A DNA stretch of 64,000 nucleotides from Methanolobus tindarius DSM 2278 (GTDB taxonomy: Archaea > Halobacteriota > Methanosarcinia > Methanosarcinales > Methanosarcinaceae). Shown here in pieces: positions 1 to 45,226 of this stretch. Under the pieces are notes generated by a model, which ran no database searches, was not told the DNA's origin, and was given only the letters and a program-made list of their open reading frames with translations. The stretch is from the NCBI RefSeq assembly GCF_000504205.1, contig NZ_AZAJ01000001.1, forward strand, positions 2,206,879-2,270,878, given 5' to 3'. Positions within the stretch are counted from its first letter, which is position 1. Each line of letters starts with the position of its first letter. The translations under genes and the position numbers were made by a program.

Positions 1-1056
1 TCTTTCTATCAGTTTCAGTTCCTTCTCTTCAAGTGAATACTCAACCGGATTTATTATGTACATTTTTTCCGGACGGTCTGTCAGCTGGTATATATTAACC
101 GGCAGGTTTCTTTCATCCTGGTAACAAATGTCGTAACATTCAAGAAATAATGTATTGTCCGGTGGTTCGGTGTATATTCTGGATGTTGAAAAGGGAGGTC
201 TGACATAGGAACGCAGATGGCTTTCATAATCGATAGCATAACCTTCGTCACCAGTTCTGTCTGTTATCGTGTGGAGATTTATGGATTTTTCAGATACTGT
301 TCCTGCATTACAGGTAATCCTTTCGGATATTGCTTTCATTTCCAGCAAAGTGCTGAGAAATCTCTGTCTGCAGAGTGAACATTCATTCCGAATATCAAAG
401 CAACTGTCTTTTGATTCGCTGTATTCTGCTAGCTTTTCAATTGTATAACATGTTTTTAATGGATCAGTTCCTGCAGTTGAGATTATTGAATCCATAATCA
501 TTGTGTGTTCTTTTTTGCAGAGACTGGAATTGTCACAGCTTTCAGTTGTGAACCTGGAATTTCTATATGGTATCAGCTTATCCTGCAAGCCTGCCATGAG
601 ATAAATTGCATCCAGGGCTCCGCTTTCATAATCTCTTTCGTATAGATTTGCAAGTGTAAGTCTTTCAACAGCAGGCTCTTTTCTAAGTATCTGAAAAATA
701 TTCATTCTGCAATGTTCGTTTTGCAGGCTGGATTCATGTTCACATTCACTACAATCAATTGTGATGTTTCTGCTGCTTCTGGAAACTTTCAACCTGTAAG
801 GGCAGAGTTCATCTTTTTCCGATTTTTTTCCTGTCAGCAAATTAAATCTGGAAGTTAATTTGCTAATCATGTCGTTGGTCTTTCTTTTTTCAAGGTCTTT
901 TGCCGGAACTATGCCTGCAAGTATCATCTCTTCTTCAGGTAAGATCATTTGCATTTGCGGATAATCTGTGCTATCTTCTATCATGTCAGAACTATTATTT
1001 AAGTCACTATTCGCTATGCAGGTAGTTTTTCTTTTTTTTAGTACCACGTTTTTCAC
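1..1056 (-). CDS. Type II/IV secretion-type ATPase, N-terminal part (partial)
   Basis: An open minus-strand frame runs off the left edge, so only the N-terminal ~350 residues are present. I read it directly. It contains CPY...DCSECE...C and CKKE/CSLC cysteine pairs, followed by stretches such as YVRPPF and IYTEPPDN and a segment ending in NPVEYSLEEKELKLIER. This resembles the cysteine-bearing N-terminal region of the large GspE/VirB11-like secretion ATPases of Methanosarcinales, which power archaeal pilus or secretion machines from the cytoplasmic membrane face. The Walker motifs would lie beyond the edge, so the function is inferred. The frame is open to a GTG at 1056; an ATG at 984 is the alternative start, and neither has an ideal ribosome binding site. 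The gene diverges from xseA across about 230 bases of AT-rich DNA. Confidence 0.6.
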   Translation of the reverse strand, partial: MKNVVLKKRKTTCIANSDLNNSSDMIEDSTDYPQMQMILPEEEMILAGIVPAKDLEKRKTNDMISKLTSRFNLLTGKKSEKDELCPYRLKVSRSSRNITIDCSECEHESSLQNEHCRMNIFQILRKEPAVERLTLANLYERDYESGALDAIYLMAGLQDKLIPYRNSRFTTESCDNSSLCKKEHTMIMDSIISTAGTDPLKTCYTIEKLAEYSESKDSCFDIRNECSLCRQRFLSTLLEMKAISERITCNAGTVSEKSINLHTITDRTGDEGYAIDYESHLRSYVRPPFSTSRIYTEPPDNTLFLECYDICYQDERNLPVNIYQLTDRPEKMYIINPVEYSLEEKELKLIER

Positions 1057-8694: not shown

Positions 8695-9600
8695 ATGAAG
8701 CACCTGATTTCAATGGCAGACCTGACTCATGATGAGATCAATGAGTTACTCGATATGGCGGAGGACCTTAAGGAAAAACGCCTGAGAGGTAAGGTCACAG
8801 ACCTGCTAAAGAATAAGAGTCTCGGCATGATTTTCGAAAAGTCATCTACACGTACCCGTGTGTCTTTTGAGGTTGCGATGTGTGACCTTGGAGGGCATGC
8901 TCTCTATCTTAACGCTAGGGATATGCAGCTTGGCAGAGGCGAGACTGTAGGCGATACTTCCGAGGTTCTTTCAAGATATCTTTATGCTATTATTGCAAGG
9001 GTCTATAGCCATGAGACGGTGAAACAACTGGCGGAAAATTCCTCAATTCCAGTTATTAATGCACTTTCGGATAAGGAACACCCATGCCAGATTCTTGCTG
9101 ACCTCCTCACTATCCGCGAATACAAGAGTAAGATAGCCGGCCTGAAATATGCGTGGGTTGGTGACGGAAATAATGTTTGTAATTCTGCTATTATTGGCGG
9201 TGCCCTTATGGATATGGAAGTTGCGGTTGCATGTCCTCCCGGATATGAGCCGGATGAGGACATTGTTGAGCTTGCAAGGGAACTTGGCGGAAATATTACT
9301 ATCACCAATGACCCGTCTGAAGCTGTAAAAGATGCAGATATCCTTTATGCTGATGTGTGGGTTTCTATGGGCGATGAGGAGGAGCGCGAGAAGCGCCTGA
9401 AAGACCTTGCACCATACCAGATAAATACTGAACTGGTGGAGCAGGCTAAACCTGATGTCATTGTTATGCACTGTCTCCCTGCACACCGCGGTGAAGAGAT
9501 TAGCGCAGAGGTCATGGACGGTCCTCATTCAGTTGTCTTTGACCAGGCAGAGAACCGCCTGCACGCTCAGAAAGCTCTCCTTATGAAAATGATGGCATGA
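8695..9600 (+). CDS. argF: Ornithine carbamoyltransferase
   Basis: It converts ornithine and carbamoyl phosphate to citrulline in arginine synthesis. The 301-residue protein carries the carbamoyl phosphate motif [12 protein letters not shown] (residues ~49-60), [12 protein letters not shown] near residue 126, the ornithine-side [11 protein letters not shown] segment and the catalytic [10 protein letters not shown] near the C-terminus (Cys of HCLP). All ligands look intact. It follows purD by 30 bases with a GAGGG ribosome site and is probably in the same transcript, which would link carbamoyl phosphate use with nucleotide synthesis. Confidence 0.96.
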
Positions 9601-40555: not shown

Positions 40556-43500
40556 TCAGTTCGCCTTAATATACTCGATCATTTTCGGCGTTAGCAGTGG
40601 TGCAATCTGCGGAAGCATGTTAGGCATGAGATTCTCCATTGCAGCGGGCATGAGGTCAGGCATTTGTTCCTTCATGTAATCCGGCATTGGGACTCTCTTT
40701 TCAACAGCTTTGAGCATCTTTGGCATGACTTTTGGCATCAGTGAAGGCATGAGCATAGGCATCATTTTCGGCATCATCGGTTTCATGAGTGCATTCATGC
40801 CGGGTACATACTTCACCGTCTTCATCATTGCCTGCATGTAGGATGGCATGGCTCCGATCATATCAGGGAGCAGTTCAACCATCATGTCGGTCATGTTCTC
40901 AGGTTCCATCAGGTCGATCATTTTCTCAAAGACTGCCCATGCAGCAAGAGCATCATTGGTTGTGTCAGGTATGTCATATCCAAGACTGCGTGCTGCAAGT
41001 GCACCTAAGTCCTGAATCTCCACGTTGACATCATTCTCCCTTGCAGCTACCCTGAACTGGACAACACAGCACGGACAGAGAGCAGCCATAATATCAGCGT
41101 CCTGGTCAACAGCTTCCTGCAAACGGACATTTCCAATCTTTGATGCGATCTGCGGCTCATCAATAAGAGTCACAACAGAACCACAGCAGAGAGCTTTCTC
41201 ACGGTTGTGCTCCATTTCCTTAAATTCAACACCTGGGATTGCCTTAAGCAGTTCACGTGGAGCATCATATACTCCTGCACCTGCTCTGCCGATGTGACAT
41301 GAGTCATGCCATGCAACAGTCTTGTTCAGTGGCACCTTGAACTTCGGTTTGAGCACATCCAGCTTATCCATAAGCACTTCAGAATAATGCCTTGCCTCAA
41401 TATCAAAATCCATTCCAAGCTTCTCAGCCCACTGTGGATAGATCGTCCTCCACATAAGCAGACATGCAGGACATGAAGTTACAACGGTCTTTGCACCTGC
41501 TTTCTGCATATTGGCAATATTCATTTTCAGGATTCTCTCAAACACATCCCACTTTCCGGCAACAAGCATGGGTATACCACAGCATGCTTCCTTATCACCA
41601 AGGGTTGTGAACTCAATTCCTGCCTCATCAAGCAGCCTTGCAGTTCCCACAGCAACATCCTTCTCAACAAAGGAGGCAGTACATCCTGCAAAGTAAGCAA
41701 TTTCTGCCTTATCCTTTATTTTAGGCCTGAGATCATCAGGTATCCACTTATCCCTGTCAACCCTGTAATTCGCCCAGATGTTCCTCTGGTTGTCCAGACT
41801 CTGAGCCATGATTTCAAACGGAGGGATTGTCATCATACCTCTCTTCTGGACTAAATTCTCTCTCAGTGTCATCCACGAGCGTTCAATTGGCAGGTCAAGC
41901 TGACAATAATAGTCACACATTTCACAGGTTGTACATGCAAGGAATGTGTCAACCTGTTCCTGGTCAAGGGGCATTTTTCCTGCAAGGTATTCCTTAATGA
42001 AGAACCACTTTCCACGAGGCGACTGTGATTCCCAGCCACGACCGTAGTACTGGTCACATTCGTTAACACAATAACCGCACTGCGCGCAGGTGAATGCATG
42101 TGATATGATATCCCCGGGCAGTCCTTTTTCATCCTTGAATTCCTGGTGCCCTACTCCACACATGTTTCCGACCATACGTGCCATTGGCTCGAATGTTTTT
42201 GCCATGGAAAGTCCTGTATTAATCATGGATTTGCCTGTCATTGTTTCAGGGTTCATGATGTCATCAGGGTCAACATCTTTCTTGAATTCCTTTATGAGTT
42301 TGAACCGGTCCCTGTAAACCTTCTCAGCCTGACTTGCAAAATAAAGGCCGGAAGCGTAAATCCTTCCGCCATTCTCCTCTGCTATTTTTACAATACTCAG
42401 GGCAAGCGGGAAGGCAAGATTGTATTTAAAAGACCTTTCCGAGTGAGGCATGAAACAGAGCATGATGGCTTCTTCGCCTTTGGTGACCATTCCTTCAACA
42501 AGGACAGGCAAACCAATTTTCTTCTCAATTTCATTGAAAATAGTATCTATTTTGTCAACAGGAACAACAACTTCAGCCGGAATGAATGAAGGACCAAGCC
42601 TCTTCACTTTCATTGACCTGAACCATTCCTGTGTTTCATGCTCGGCAATTTCATCTGGCAGTATCTCTCCGCCAGCTTCTTTTACAATACTTTCAAGGGC
42701 GCTTACGTCTCTTGATACAGGATAAGCGAAATTGCAGATGTAGGAAAGCGGCAGTTCCGGCCTGTGTTCATCCACTGTTTCTCCGTAGTGTGTTTTGTAC
42801 GGAGCTTTGTTCTTCATATCAGCCCACTGCGGGTTTAAGAATGAGATTGCCCATACCGGGACTTTTTTCTCCCCGACCATCTTGATAGCCTTTTTCATTG
42901 AAGATGCATCAGGGAATTTTGCAGAGATTGCTCCAGTCTTTTCGTATTTCCTGAGTTTCAGGGTAATTTGCGTAATAATTCCGGTGGCTCCAAAGGTTCC
43001 GATTATCTTTCCCAGTTCCTCACCTGAGAAATCATTCACTTCACCATTTGGAAGGACAACCCTTGCAGATTCCATAGTGTCCTGTGACCAGCCGTATTCG
43101 TAACTTCCATAGCCCACACCATTCTGGGCAAGCCAGCCACCAACGGTTGCAGACATTGCACTTGAAGGTACAGCCTGTACTGCAAGTCCTTCCTCGTTGA
43201 GCTTTTCCTCCAGGTTGTACCACACGGCACCTGCTCCCACGGTAACTCTGAGATTATCCTTGTCAAGATTGATTATATGTCTCATGGGAGTTACATCGGC
43301 AATAATTCCTCCTTTTGTAGGAATGATTCCACCGTACCCGGATGAGGCTCCTGCTCTTGGAACAACAGGAATTTTGTATTTACGTGCAAAATTAATAAGT
43401 TCAACAGCTTTTTCTTCATTCTTTACTTTTACAATTGCTGCGGGCTTGGACTTACCCACCATTGTTTTTATGAGTGAAGGTAATGCTCCCACATCATGTG

Positions 43501-43615
43501 TGTAAAAGTGTCTTTCCTTGTCTTTGAAATTGACCCCTCTGCCAAAAATATCGGAGAGTTCCTTTTTTTGTTGCTCACTTAGTTCAAATGTTGAATTTGC
43601 CATGATAAACCCCAT
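40556..43615 (-). CDS. FAD-dependent oxidoreductase fused to two [4Fe-4S] and CCG domains, with Met-rich tail
   Basis: A 1019-residue fusion. Residues ~1-480 are a GlcD/D-lactate-dehydrogenase-type FAD-binding domain (VVPRAGASSGYGG and VGGWLAQNGVGYGSYEYG). Next come two [4Fe-4S] sites (CAQCGYCVNECDQ and CTTCEMCDYYCQLD), then two CCG/heterodisulfide-reductase-D-like domains (EACCGIPM and ALCCGS, with SCPACL and CPCCVVQF). The last ~117 residues are extremely Met-rich. Such proteins oxidise D-2-hydroxy acids and pass electrons to a partner via FeS or thiol centres. The real substrate could be lactate or glycolate. Pyruvate kinase is divergent. The start may also be the ATG at 43603. Confidence 0.85.
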   Translation of the reverse strand: MGFIMANSTFELSEQQKKELSDIFGRGVNFKDKERHFYTHDVGALPSLIKTMVGKSKPAAIVKVKNEEKAVELINFARKYKIPVVPRAGASSGYGGIIPTKGGIIADVTPMRHIINLDKDNLRVTVGAGAVWYNLEEKLNEEGLAVQAVPSSAMSATVGGWLAQNGVGYGSYEYGWSQDTMESARVVLPNGEVNDFSGEELGKIIGTFGATGIITQITLKLRKYEKTGAISAKFPDASSMKKAIKMVGEKKVPVWAISFLNPQWADMKNKAPYKTHYGETVDEHRPELPLSYICNFAYPVSRDVSALESIVKEAGGEILPDEIAEHETQEWFRSMKVKRLGPSFIPAEVVVPVDKIDTIFNEIEKKIGLPVLVEGMVTKGEEAIMLCFMPHSERSFKYNLAFPLALSIVKIAEENGGRIYASGLYFASQAEKVYRDRFKLIKEFKKDVDPDDIMNPETMTGKSMINTGLSMAKTFEPMARMVGNMCGVGHQEFKDEKGLPGDIISHAFTCAQCGYCVNECDQYYGRGWESQSPRGKWFFIKEYLAGKMPLDQEQVDTFLACTTCEMCDYYCQLDLPIERSWMTLRENLVQKRGMMTIPPFEIMAQSLDNQRNIWANYRVDRDKWIPDDLRPKIKDKAEIAYFAGCTASFVEKDVAVGTARLLDEAGIEFTTLGDKEACCGIPMLVAGKWDVFERILKMNIANMQKAGAKTVVTSCPACLLMWRTIYPQWAEKLGMDFDIEARHYSEVLMDKLDVLKPKFKVPLNKTVAWHDSCHIGRAGAGVYDAPRELLKAIPGVEFKEMEHNREKALCCGSVVTLIDEPQIASKIGNVRLQEAVDQDADIMAALCPCCVVQFRVAARENDVNVEIQDLGALAARSLGYDIPDTTNDALAAWAVFEKMIDLMEPENMTDMMVELLPDMIGAMPSYMQAMMKTVKYVPGMNALMKPMMPKMMPMLMPSLMPKVMPKMLKAVEKRVPMPDYMKEQMPDLMPAAMENLMPNMLPQIAPLLTPKMIEYIKAN

Positions 43616-43786
43616 AATATATATTGGATTCTTATATTTAAAATATTTTTAGAGACGTGTGATTATATGGTATCTCTATATGTCCCTATATATACTGACT
43701 TGAATACTTCCAAATAAACCTAAATTTAATCAGTTCCATAAGAACAATTATATTGATTACTGAATATCTTTAAGGTGGGATAATGT

Positions 43787-45226
43787 ATGGATTTGCCTGA
43801 CCACAAAACAAAGATCGTATGTACAATCGGCCCTGCAACCTCATCTCCGGAAATGATCAGGGAGCTCATTATTGCCGGAATGAATGTTGCCCGTCTGAAC
43901 TTTTCTCATGGTGATATGGATGACCATCGCAAACTTATCAAGAGGATCAGGGATGCTGCTGATGAACTTAATCAGGTGGTTGCAATCATGGCGGATCTCC
44001 CGGGTCCGAAAATCAGGGTTGGTGTAATTGAAAATGAACCCATGATATTGAGAAAAAATGACCGGATTACTTTAACTACAAAGGATATTCTTGGAAAGGA
44101 TTCAGTGATTCCTGTTCAGTATAAACAGATTGCAGATAGTGTTTTACCAGGCAGTCCGATTTATCTTAGTGATGGTTTTATTCAGCTCAATTGTGATGCA
44201 ATAGAAAATGAGGATATTCATTGTAAAGTCGTTGTAGGCGGTCCGCTTTTCTCTAAAAAAGGTATTAATCTGCCCGGTTCAAAGATATATGTAAGTCCGA
44301 TAACGGGAAAGGATCTTGAAATTATAGATTTTGCCTTGAAAGAAGGTATTAGCATATTCTGTCTTTCTTTTATAGAATCCAGAGATGATGTTGTACAGGC
44401 ACGCAACTATATTGAATCAAAAGGGAAAACAGCATTCCTTGTTTCAAAAATAGAACGTGAACAGGCAGTGAAGAATATTGATTCTATCTTGCAGGAGACC
44501 GATGCTATAATGGTAGCACGTGGTGATCTTGGAGTGGAGGTTCCTATTGAGGAAGTTCCTATCATACAAAAGAAGATCATCCACAAAGCAAACCTTCTCA
44601 GCAAACCGGTAATTACTGCCACGCAAATGCTTGAGTCGATGATAAGTAACATCCGTCCTACAAGAGCTGAAGCAACAGATGTGGCAAATGCAATAATAGA
44701 CGGCACAGATGCAGTTATGCTGTCTGGAGAAACTGCAGTAGGAAAATATCCTGTTGAAACAGTAAAGATGATGGCTACAATTGCAAAATCAACGGAAAAA
44801 TGGCGTGATCACACCACTCTTGGGCTTGAGTTAATGACAAAAGCAATACATAAAATGAATCCGACTATCGAGGATGTAATCTCTATACAGGTCAATGAAG
44901 CTCTTCGCAGTCTCCCGGTTCGTTACGTAATAACTCCTACTGTATCCGGAAAAACTTCACGTTTGATATCCCGGTTCCGGCCAAATGTCTGGATATTGGC
45001 ATTCAGCCGCAATTCACTGACGTGTGAACAGCTTACCTTGCAGTATGCGGTTTATCCTGTATTTGTCATATTGAAAGTCCATGAATGGGAAGCTACAATC
45101 ATGGATTCCCTTAAAAGGCTGGGAAATATTGAACCTGGGGATCTGGTTCTTTTAACACAGGGGCAGGTTCCTGGTGGTGGTAGATCCGGTGGCACTAATT
45201 TCCTGAAGTTTATTGTTGCTGAATGA
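43787..45226 (+). CDS. pyk: Pyruvate kinase
   Basis: Converts phosphoenolpyruvate and ADP to pyruvate and ATP. The 479-residue enzyme has IVCTIGPATSSPEMIRELI (residues ~9-27), NVARLNFSHG (~32-41), the substrate-binding VARGDLGVEVPIEEVP (~242-257), TATQMLESM (~276-284) and the C-terminal allosteric domain. The catalytic Lys is in VSKIEREQAV (~217-226). In methanogens it works with PEP synthetase in central carbon metabolism. It stands alone, divergent from the FAD/Fe-S fusion gene. Confidence 0.94.
   Translation: MDLPDHKTKIVCTIGPATSSPEMIRELIIAGMNVARLNFSHGDMDDHRKLIKRIRDAADELNQVVAIMADLPGPKIRVGVIENEPMILRKNDRITLTTKDILGKDSVIPVQYKQIADSVLPGSPIYLSDGFIQLNCDAIENEDIHCKVVVGGPLFSKKGINLPGSKIYVSPITGKDLEIIDFALKEGISIFCLSFIESRDDVVQARNYIESKGKTAFLVSKIEREQAVKNIDSILQETDAIMVARGDLGVEVPIEEVPIIQKKIIHKANLLSKPVITATQMLESMISNIRPTRAEATDVANAIIDGTDAVMLSGETAVGKYPVETVKMMATIAKSTEKWRDHTTLGLELMTKAIHKMNPTIEDVISIQVNEALRSLPVRYVITPTVSGKTSRLISRFRPNVWILAFSRNSLTCEQLTLQYAVYPVFVILKVHEWEATIMDSLKRLGNIEPGDLVLLTQGQVPGGGRSGGTNFLKFIVAE

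Follow-up and report, generated by a model that had tools for sequence, protein, structure and literature searches.

A domain of about 130 residues, rich in methionine and proline, closes a redox enzyme encoded in the window, the 64,000-nucleotide stretch of Methanolobus tindarius DNA analysed here. Archaea and bacteria alike conserve its Met, Pro and hydrophobic positions, and the loci examined tie it to a single enzyme family. In the libraries searched (Pfam, NCBIfam, PDB) the domain has no name. Judging from sequence and a predicted structure, we tentatively favour the reading of a helical domain with a Met core, which would lie packed against the HdrB/EtfD-like dual-CCG module of the enzyme or serve to dock a partner there. 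The features of the enzyme gene are listed in Table 1.

Table 1. Features of the enzyme gene, in window positions
Feature	Window position	Strand	Evidence or remark
ORF, FAD / dicluster [4Fe-4S] / dual CCG fusion oxidoreductase with Met-Pro C-terminal domain	40556..43615	(-)	1019 aa
FAD_binding_4, residues 58-195	43031..43444	(-)	Pfam E 1.8e-35; mLDHD structure match Z 30.7 over residues 12-460
FAD-oxidase_C-like domain, divergent, residues 230-457	42245..42928	(-)	Pfam 18.3 vs 21.2 bits (below cut-off); site without the H.GDGN and EHG of the genome's own GlcD
4Fe-4S dicluster domain, residues 510-575	41891..42088	(-)	Pfam; eight Cys invariant in 72/72
First CCG Cys motif, residues 645-718 (C645, C678, C679, C715, C718)	41462..41683	(-)	Pfam, Cys conservation; HdrB 5odc_B Z 24.8 over 637-890
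Second CCG domain, residues 767-855 (C773, C810, C811, C847, C849, C850)	41051..41317	(-)	Pfam, Cys conservation
Conserved Met-Pro helical domain, residues 886-1018	40562..40960	(-)	Conservation and structure prediction
Long predicted helix 940-974; stripes Met (940..964), Pro (949..965), Lys-rich polar, hydrophobic	40694..40798	(-)	Model and register
Long predicted helix 979-1018; stripes Met (981..997), Pro (986..1010), polar, hydrophobic	40562..40681	(-)	Model and register

The last 117 residues of the enzyme hold 28 Met and 18 Pro, compared with 35 Met in the other 902 residues. Ten of the 18 tail prolines directly follow a Met, and residues 947-961 read MMPKMMPMLMPSLMP. The most Met-rich stretch of 117 residues in the enzyme has 29 Met, while among the window's 46 non-overlapping ATG-initiated ORFs with a length of 120 aa or more the runner-up has 10. 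At the window Met frequency of 0.033, the binomial chance of at least 28 Met in 117 residues is about 1e-16, a formal figure given that the region was chosen for its Met. Our recount agrees with the original prediction, which had placed 28 Met in this region and located it at 40556-40910, correct to about one codon (residue 903 begins at 40909). The unit that is conserved and predicted to fold already starts near residue 886 (window ~40960). The enzyme had also been described as an FAD/Fe-S/CCG fusion with several redox centres, and the Pfam domains and invariant cysteines bear out this predicted architecture.

FAD_binding_4 scores 122 bits in Pfam against a cut-off of 26.4. All 19 cysteines of the Fe-S and CCG regions (eight dicluster, eleven CCG-region) are invariant in the 72 aligned sequences. 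Both CCG motifs display the HdrB-type pattern C...CC...CxxC, with five cysteines each (C645/C678/C679/C715/C718 and C773/C810/C811/C847/C850) that are likewise kept in 72/72. The whole-protein AlphaFold2 model has a mean pLDDT of 87.2 and a pTM of 0.85. When aligned with VIA-align, its residues 12-460 match mammalian LDHD (Z 30.7), 269-881 match EtfD of M. smegmatis (Z 28.2) and 637-890 match HdrB (Z 24.8). NCBIfam gave sub-threshold matches only (TfrB, LdhH, GlpC, GlcD, HdrB and others), and none of the 25 examined of these 26 covers the tail.

The substrate site of the FAD part is divergent. The H.GDGN motif is found in none of the 72 family members, and EHG is absent from the GlcD-aligned site in all 72, whereas the GlcD of the same genome, used as a control, passes both tests. 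EHG does occur in 2/72 sequences at residues 414-416, which an alignment by eye puts some eight residues N-terminal of its place in GlcD, and in 12 further sequences at unrelated positions. Because both motifs are absent at the site, the substrate is likely to differ from those of known hydroxyacid dehydrogenases, as far as sequence can indicate, and the name D-lactate dehydrogenase is unsupported. Four distant paralogues of 897-934 aa (L089, L090, L091, L105; 32-36% identical) keep the FAD/Fe-S/CCG order, end their match at residues 881-885 without a tail, and also lack H.GDGN and EHG; the divergent substrate site is thus not tied to the tail.

The tail is widespread in the order of the window: the whole protein finds a match in 104 of 185 genomes (E<=1e-100), in a few cases by fragments or a tail-less paralogue only, and the tail alone in 103 of 185 (E<=0.001). 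Each tail contains 19-30 Met in 61 non-redundant full-length sequences, which stem from the loci fetched by then rather than from all 104 matching genomes; the Methanoperedens-type branch is poorer, with 19-22. In 52 of 60 homologues the tail is more similar to that of the window than the body is, for example 0.80 vs 0.66 in L068 and 0.70 vs 0.50 in L080. The eight in which it is less conserved comprise four from the genus of the window (0.88-0.90 vs 0.91-0.97) and four of the ten Methanoperedens-type sequences. A scan of the collection with tail patterns returned 213 relatives. By record title, 27 of the best 80 of these 213, which were kept, are bacterial (Chloroflexi/Anaerolineae, Aminicenantes, Spirochaetes, Syntrophomonas, Zixibacteria and others) and the rest archaeal. 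A profile recovered the tail in 80/80 kept loci, as expected since the query was the tail. No tail relative was found in viral contigs among 82 pattern stretches.

Conservation of individual positions was assessed in an alignment (A2) of 71 of the best 80 loci, restricted to proteins of 850-1100 aa; L107, L108, L120, L127, L128, L168, L169, L176 and L185 were left out as fragments or for their odd lengths. Among its 46 sequences less than 90% identical, Met columns are kept as Met in 79% of cells in the tail vs 43% in the body, though some Met columns are biased in these loci, since Met is part of the tail patterns that found them and the set was limited to the best 80 of 213. A query without the tail (residues 1-890) served as a control for ascertainment. 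It matched 21 of 249 genomes in the class of an Anaerolineae MAG (G519) at E<=1e-120, a set that overlaps the tail-found genomes in at least G508, G509, G511 and G519. The tail is present on 19 of these 21 matches, and in the remaining two the contig ends first, at residues 919 and 903. In the 19 sequences, Met columns are kept in 71% of cells in the tail vs 29% in the body. Of the 28 Met columns of the tail, 12 keep Met in 44 or more of the 46 sequences and 16 in fewer. The substitutes are L, F, I, V, A and Y, with the exception of column 954, which is K or R in 18/46.

These results bear directly on the idea of low-complexity drift, in which slippage in repetitive DNA would have produced a functionless Met-Pro tail, and which the original prediction had tied to a loss of the Met positions in homologues. 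The repetitive composition speaks for such an origin. Yet the positions are kept, the tail is present on every body-query homologue whose 3' end is there (19/19), and its Met retention exceeds that of the body. We reject drift on these grounds and regard its probability as negligible.

In two genomes the enzyme gene is split. In G193 it consists of two overlapping ORFs, one for FAD and dicluster (626 aa, 31% identical to the window protein) and one for dual CCG and tail (398 aa, 42% identical). In G521 the FAD part lies far from the Fe-S/CCG/tail part, and the latter contains one in-frame stop. In both splits, the tail therefore goes with the CCG part. Tail fragments that lack a body were seen in a Methanosarcinales MAG (L107) and in the family of the window, where L094 (G165:C6:22210-22536) is a frame-broken piece of the tail region only; both look like remnants.

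Searches for known relatives of the domain gave little. Pfam had no model at cut-off over the tail, either for the window protein (E<=1) or for 10 tails (E<=10; best E 0.046, 14.2 bits vs 27.1). A PDB sequence search with a tail profile found nothing below E 0.18, and Foldseek returned no PDB match at E<=10, for which masking of monotonous helices may partly account. VIA-align produced a single row for the tail (Z 3.2, rmsd 11.4), and the viral fold search two matches (best E 9.2). No literature on a Met-Pro domain was found among the titles and abstract openings of open-licence papers.

Structure prediction presents the tail as an independently folding unit, in which short helices come first and then two long ones that a short turn joins. 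In the full model, residues 881-1019 have block pLDDT values of 78-92, and DSSP assigns helices at 886-902, 905-914, 916-921, 925-936, 940-974 and 979-1018. A 140-residue tail piece folded alone with AlphaFold2 (54 sequences) gave nearly the same helices, with a pLDDT of 87.6 and a pTM of 0.76. Plotted at 90 degrees per residue, both long helices separate into four stripes of Met, Pro, polar and hydrophobic residues, as though each were built from a roughly four-residue repeat; the prediction of long helices with Pro at every fourth residue rests on 54-72 sequences. Across the family, both hydrophobic stripes of helix 940-974 are 100% hydrophobic and those of helix 979-1018 are 90% and 88%, while the Pro stripes are 70% Pro in the first long helix and 59% in the second.

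The four-residue register was compared with shuffled sequences in 46 proteins, which are related rather than independent. For Pro and hydrophobics, at most 5% of shuffles matched it in 46/46 sequences in both long helices. At the same level, Met alone passed in 40/46 (first helix) and 45/46 (second), and polar residues in 33/46 and 44/46. The best single period in most sequences is 3.8 rather than 4.0 for Pro in the first long helix and for Met and hydrophobics in the second. Residue 954, the only Met column with charged substitutes, belongs to the polar stripe, which points to a structural basis for the register.

On this basis, the tail may work as follows. The helices would be bent by Pro, with flexible, unbranched Met side chains filling their core and their hydrophobic faces, and the domain would rest on the dual-CCG module or present a docking surface there. 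In that place it might shield the presumed non-cubane clusters or receive a redox partner or a hydrophobic substrate. Two cubane [4Fe-4S] clusters would carry electrons between the CCG clusters and a substrate at the FAD. A bolder version starts from proline chemistry: Pro leaves backbone carbonyls unpaired in a helix. With four residues per turn and Pro at every turn, the helical hairpin could represent a new structural class in which unpaired carbonyls run beside a ladder of Met thioethers. Close to the non-cubane clusters, the resulting groove could hold a hydrophobic cofactor, a substrate chain or a monovalent soft cation, and the protein would be an FAD-driven disulfide enzyme of HdrB-like type, distributed among anaerobic archaea and bacteria. 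We consider this extension improbable and put it forward as speculation from sequence.

The main rival to a packing or docking role at the CCG module is that the tail is a peripheral membrane domain, with Met/Leu faces in lipid and the Lys stripe at the head groups, that would replace the membrane domain of EtfD and exchange electrons with methanophenazine, menaquinone or a membrane partner. The first long helix suits this role, as it combines hydrophobic stripes with a net charge of +6, and most loci of Methanosarcina and Methanococcoides have, immediately upstream and in the same orientation, a gene for a NapH-like membrane ferredoxin. That neighbour was, however, not seen in Methanolobus-type loci or among the scanned bacterial neighbours, and the tail contains no stretch of transmembrane grade (best 19-residue Kyte-Doolittle mean 0.71). 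In addition, 34 of 40 tail-bearing genomes lack both menaquinone markers (the futalosine marker PF02621 occurs in 6 and menD over cut-off in 0), although incomplete bins or other pathways could hide menaquinone genes in these 34. The menD model matched 31 of the 40 weakly (E<=1e-10) with none over cut-off; in 14 control genomes it matched all 14, 7 of them over cut-off. One of the 34 is G148, of the window's own family, which would presumably use methanophenazine. A general menaquinone-docking role is weakened by these counts, which are no argument against lipid contact as such. The membrane contact once suggested for the tail may still hold as a membrane or hydrophobic contact. Overall, we judge membrane docking rather unlikely.

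The two other roles first suggested for the tail, metal binding (copper or iron) and protection from oxidants, fare worse. A soft metal such as Cu(I) could be held by stripe Met thioethers brought together at i and i+4, and the 12 columns that are Met in at least 44/46 sequences suggest that Met itself is wanted rather than any hydrophobic residue. Against this, the other sixteen Met columns tolerate hydrophobic residues (Leu, Phe, Ile, Val, Ala; Lys/Arg at 954). Cytoplasmic soft-metal sites usually use Cys, and copper-binding Met-motif proteins have Met clusters with interchangeable His/Cys ligands; neither Cys nor His occurs in the last 134 residues of the enzyme or at any of the 28 tail Met columns in 72 homologues. 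Fe-S clusters point to a cytoplasmic enzyme, and no signal peptide was seen by eye at the N-terminus. We do not think that the tail Met residues are metal ligands, and metal binding appears very unlikely. A sacrificial sink, in which surface Met would absorb oxidants and guard the oxygen-sensitive clusters, would fit an Fe-S-rich enzyme of anaerobic hosts. A desulfoferrodoxin gene lies upstream in one archaeal locus (G223, L232) and a rubrerythrin gene downstream in one Gemmatimonadota locus (L181), but each is a single case among 36 scanned neighbours. The number of Met would suffice for a sink, yet their positions, the Pro spacing and the polar stripe are conserved; since a sink leaves the fixed Met and Pro register unexplained, we give it hardly any credence.

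No steady partner gene was found across the enzyme loci scanned. The 36 neighbours mentioned above were same-strand genes picked from 124 at 44 loci, five loci having been dropped for lack of a recognised main ORF; they include ArsR-type (6) and PocR-type (3) regulators. In the window, a pyruvate kinase gene (43787-45226 +, Pfam PK E 7.5e-118) stands head-to-head with the enzyme gene across a gap at 43615-43787. This arrangement is widespread in Methanolobus and Methanomethylovorans loci and was not seen in Methanosarcina loci. In L068, the NapH-like gene is located at 8964-9581, 298 bases from the enzyme gene. Five bacterial loci and one archaeal locus (L138, L157, L182, L229, L246, L248; Pfam) have a gene for a small ArsR-family regulator immediately upstream, in the orientation of the enzyme gene, and the six regulators share one Cys a few residues before a conserved P/A-x-R. 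It is possible that this neighbour is a dedicated thiol or redox sensor.

In a quick tree of 76 proteins, the window enzyme adjoins that of Methanolobus vulcani, and Methanoperedens sequences fall inside an otherwise bacterial group. This placement suggests transfer between domains of life, as far as a tree from a short search with many MAG rows may indicate it. The redox enzyme of HdrB/EtfD-like type that carries this conserved domain, nameless in the libraries searched, occurs in methanogens, in ANME-type archaea and in several bacterial phyla. The Met-Pro helical repeat is itself unusual. The domain marks a family whose FAD substrate site departs from that of known hydroxyacid dehydrogenases, so that it would be unsafe to annotate its members as D-lactate or glycolate dehydrogenases.

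Met-rich helices that form hydrophobic surfaces are known from the SRP54 M domain and reportedly from the C-domain of Sgt2. The tail differs from both in its four-residue Met-Pro register and its attachment to a redox enzyme, and it has no Pfam match to a domain of this kind. The N-terminal part of the enzyme resembles GlcD and the D-lactate dehydrogenases, sharing the FAD-enzyme fold over residues 12-460 with mLDHD and with LctD (7qh2_C, Z 29.6), unlike which it lacks both substrate-site motifs. A parallel in domain order is the FAD-linked oxidase of Burkholderia and Herbaspirillum with DUF3683, CCG and DUF3400 (PMC5764234). It has the same order of FAD, 4Fe-4S dicluster, two CCG domains and an extra C-terminal domain, and is a proposed phosphoglycerate dehydrogenase, with a serine-synthesis role drawn from mutant fitness and no complementation of E. 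coli serA. In contrast, the window enzyme has no DUF3683 or DUF3400 match (Pfam, E<=1).

The nearest systems for the remainder of the enzyme are HdrB/HdrD and EtfD, with which it shares the dicluster and two CCG domains with HdrB-type Cys motifs. The soluble dicluster and dual-CCG region of EtfD (9ojn) is matched with an rmsd of 3.0 over 377 aligned residues. The enzyme departs from these proteins in its N-terminal FAD fusion, its lack of a transmembrane part and its Met-Pro domain. Where EtfD has an N-terminal transmembrane domain, there is the FAD domain, and the top 19-residue Kyte-Doolittle mean of the enzyme is 1.53, at residue 840 in the CCG region. The C-terminal residues 778-1042 of EtfD itself are reported to be disordered (PMC13083937). 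The non-cubane clusters of Hdr are described as solvent-accessible and able to cleave a disulfide, those of EtfD as shielded (PMC13083937). In the enzyme described here, a fixed C-terminal helical domain could cap the CCG clusters or shape access to them.
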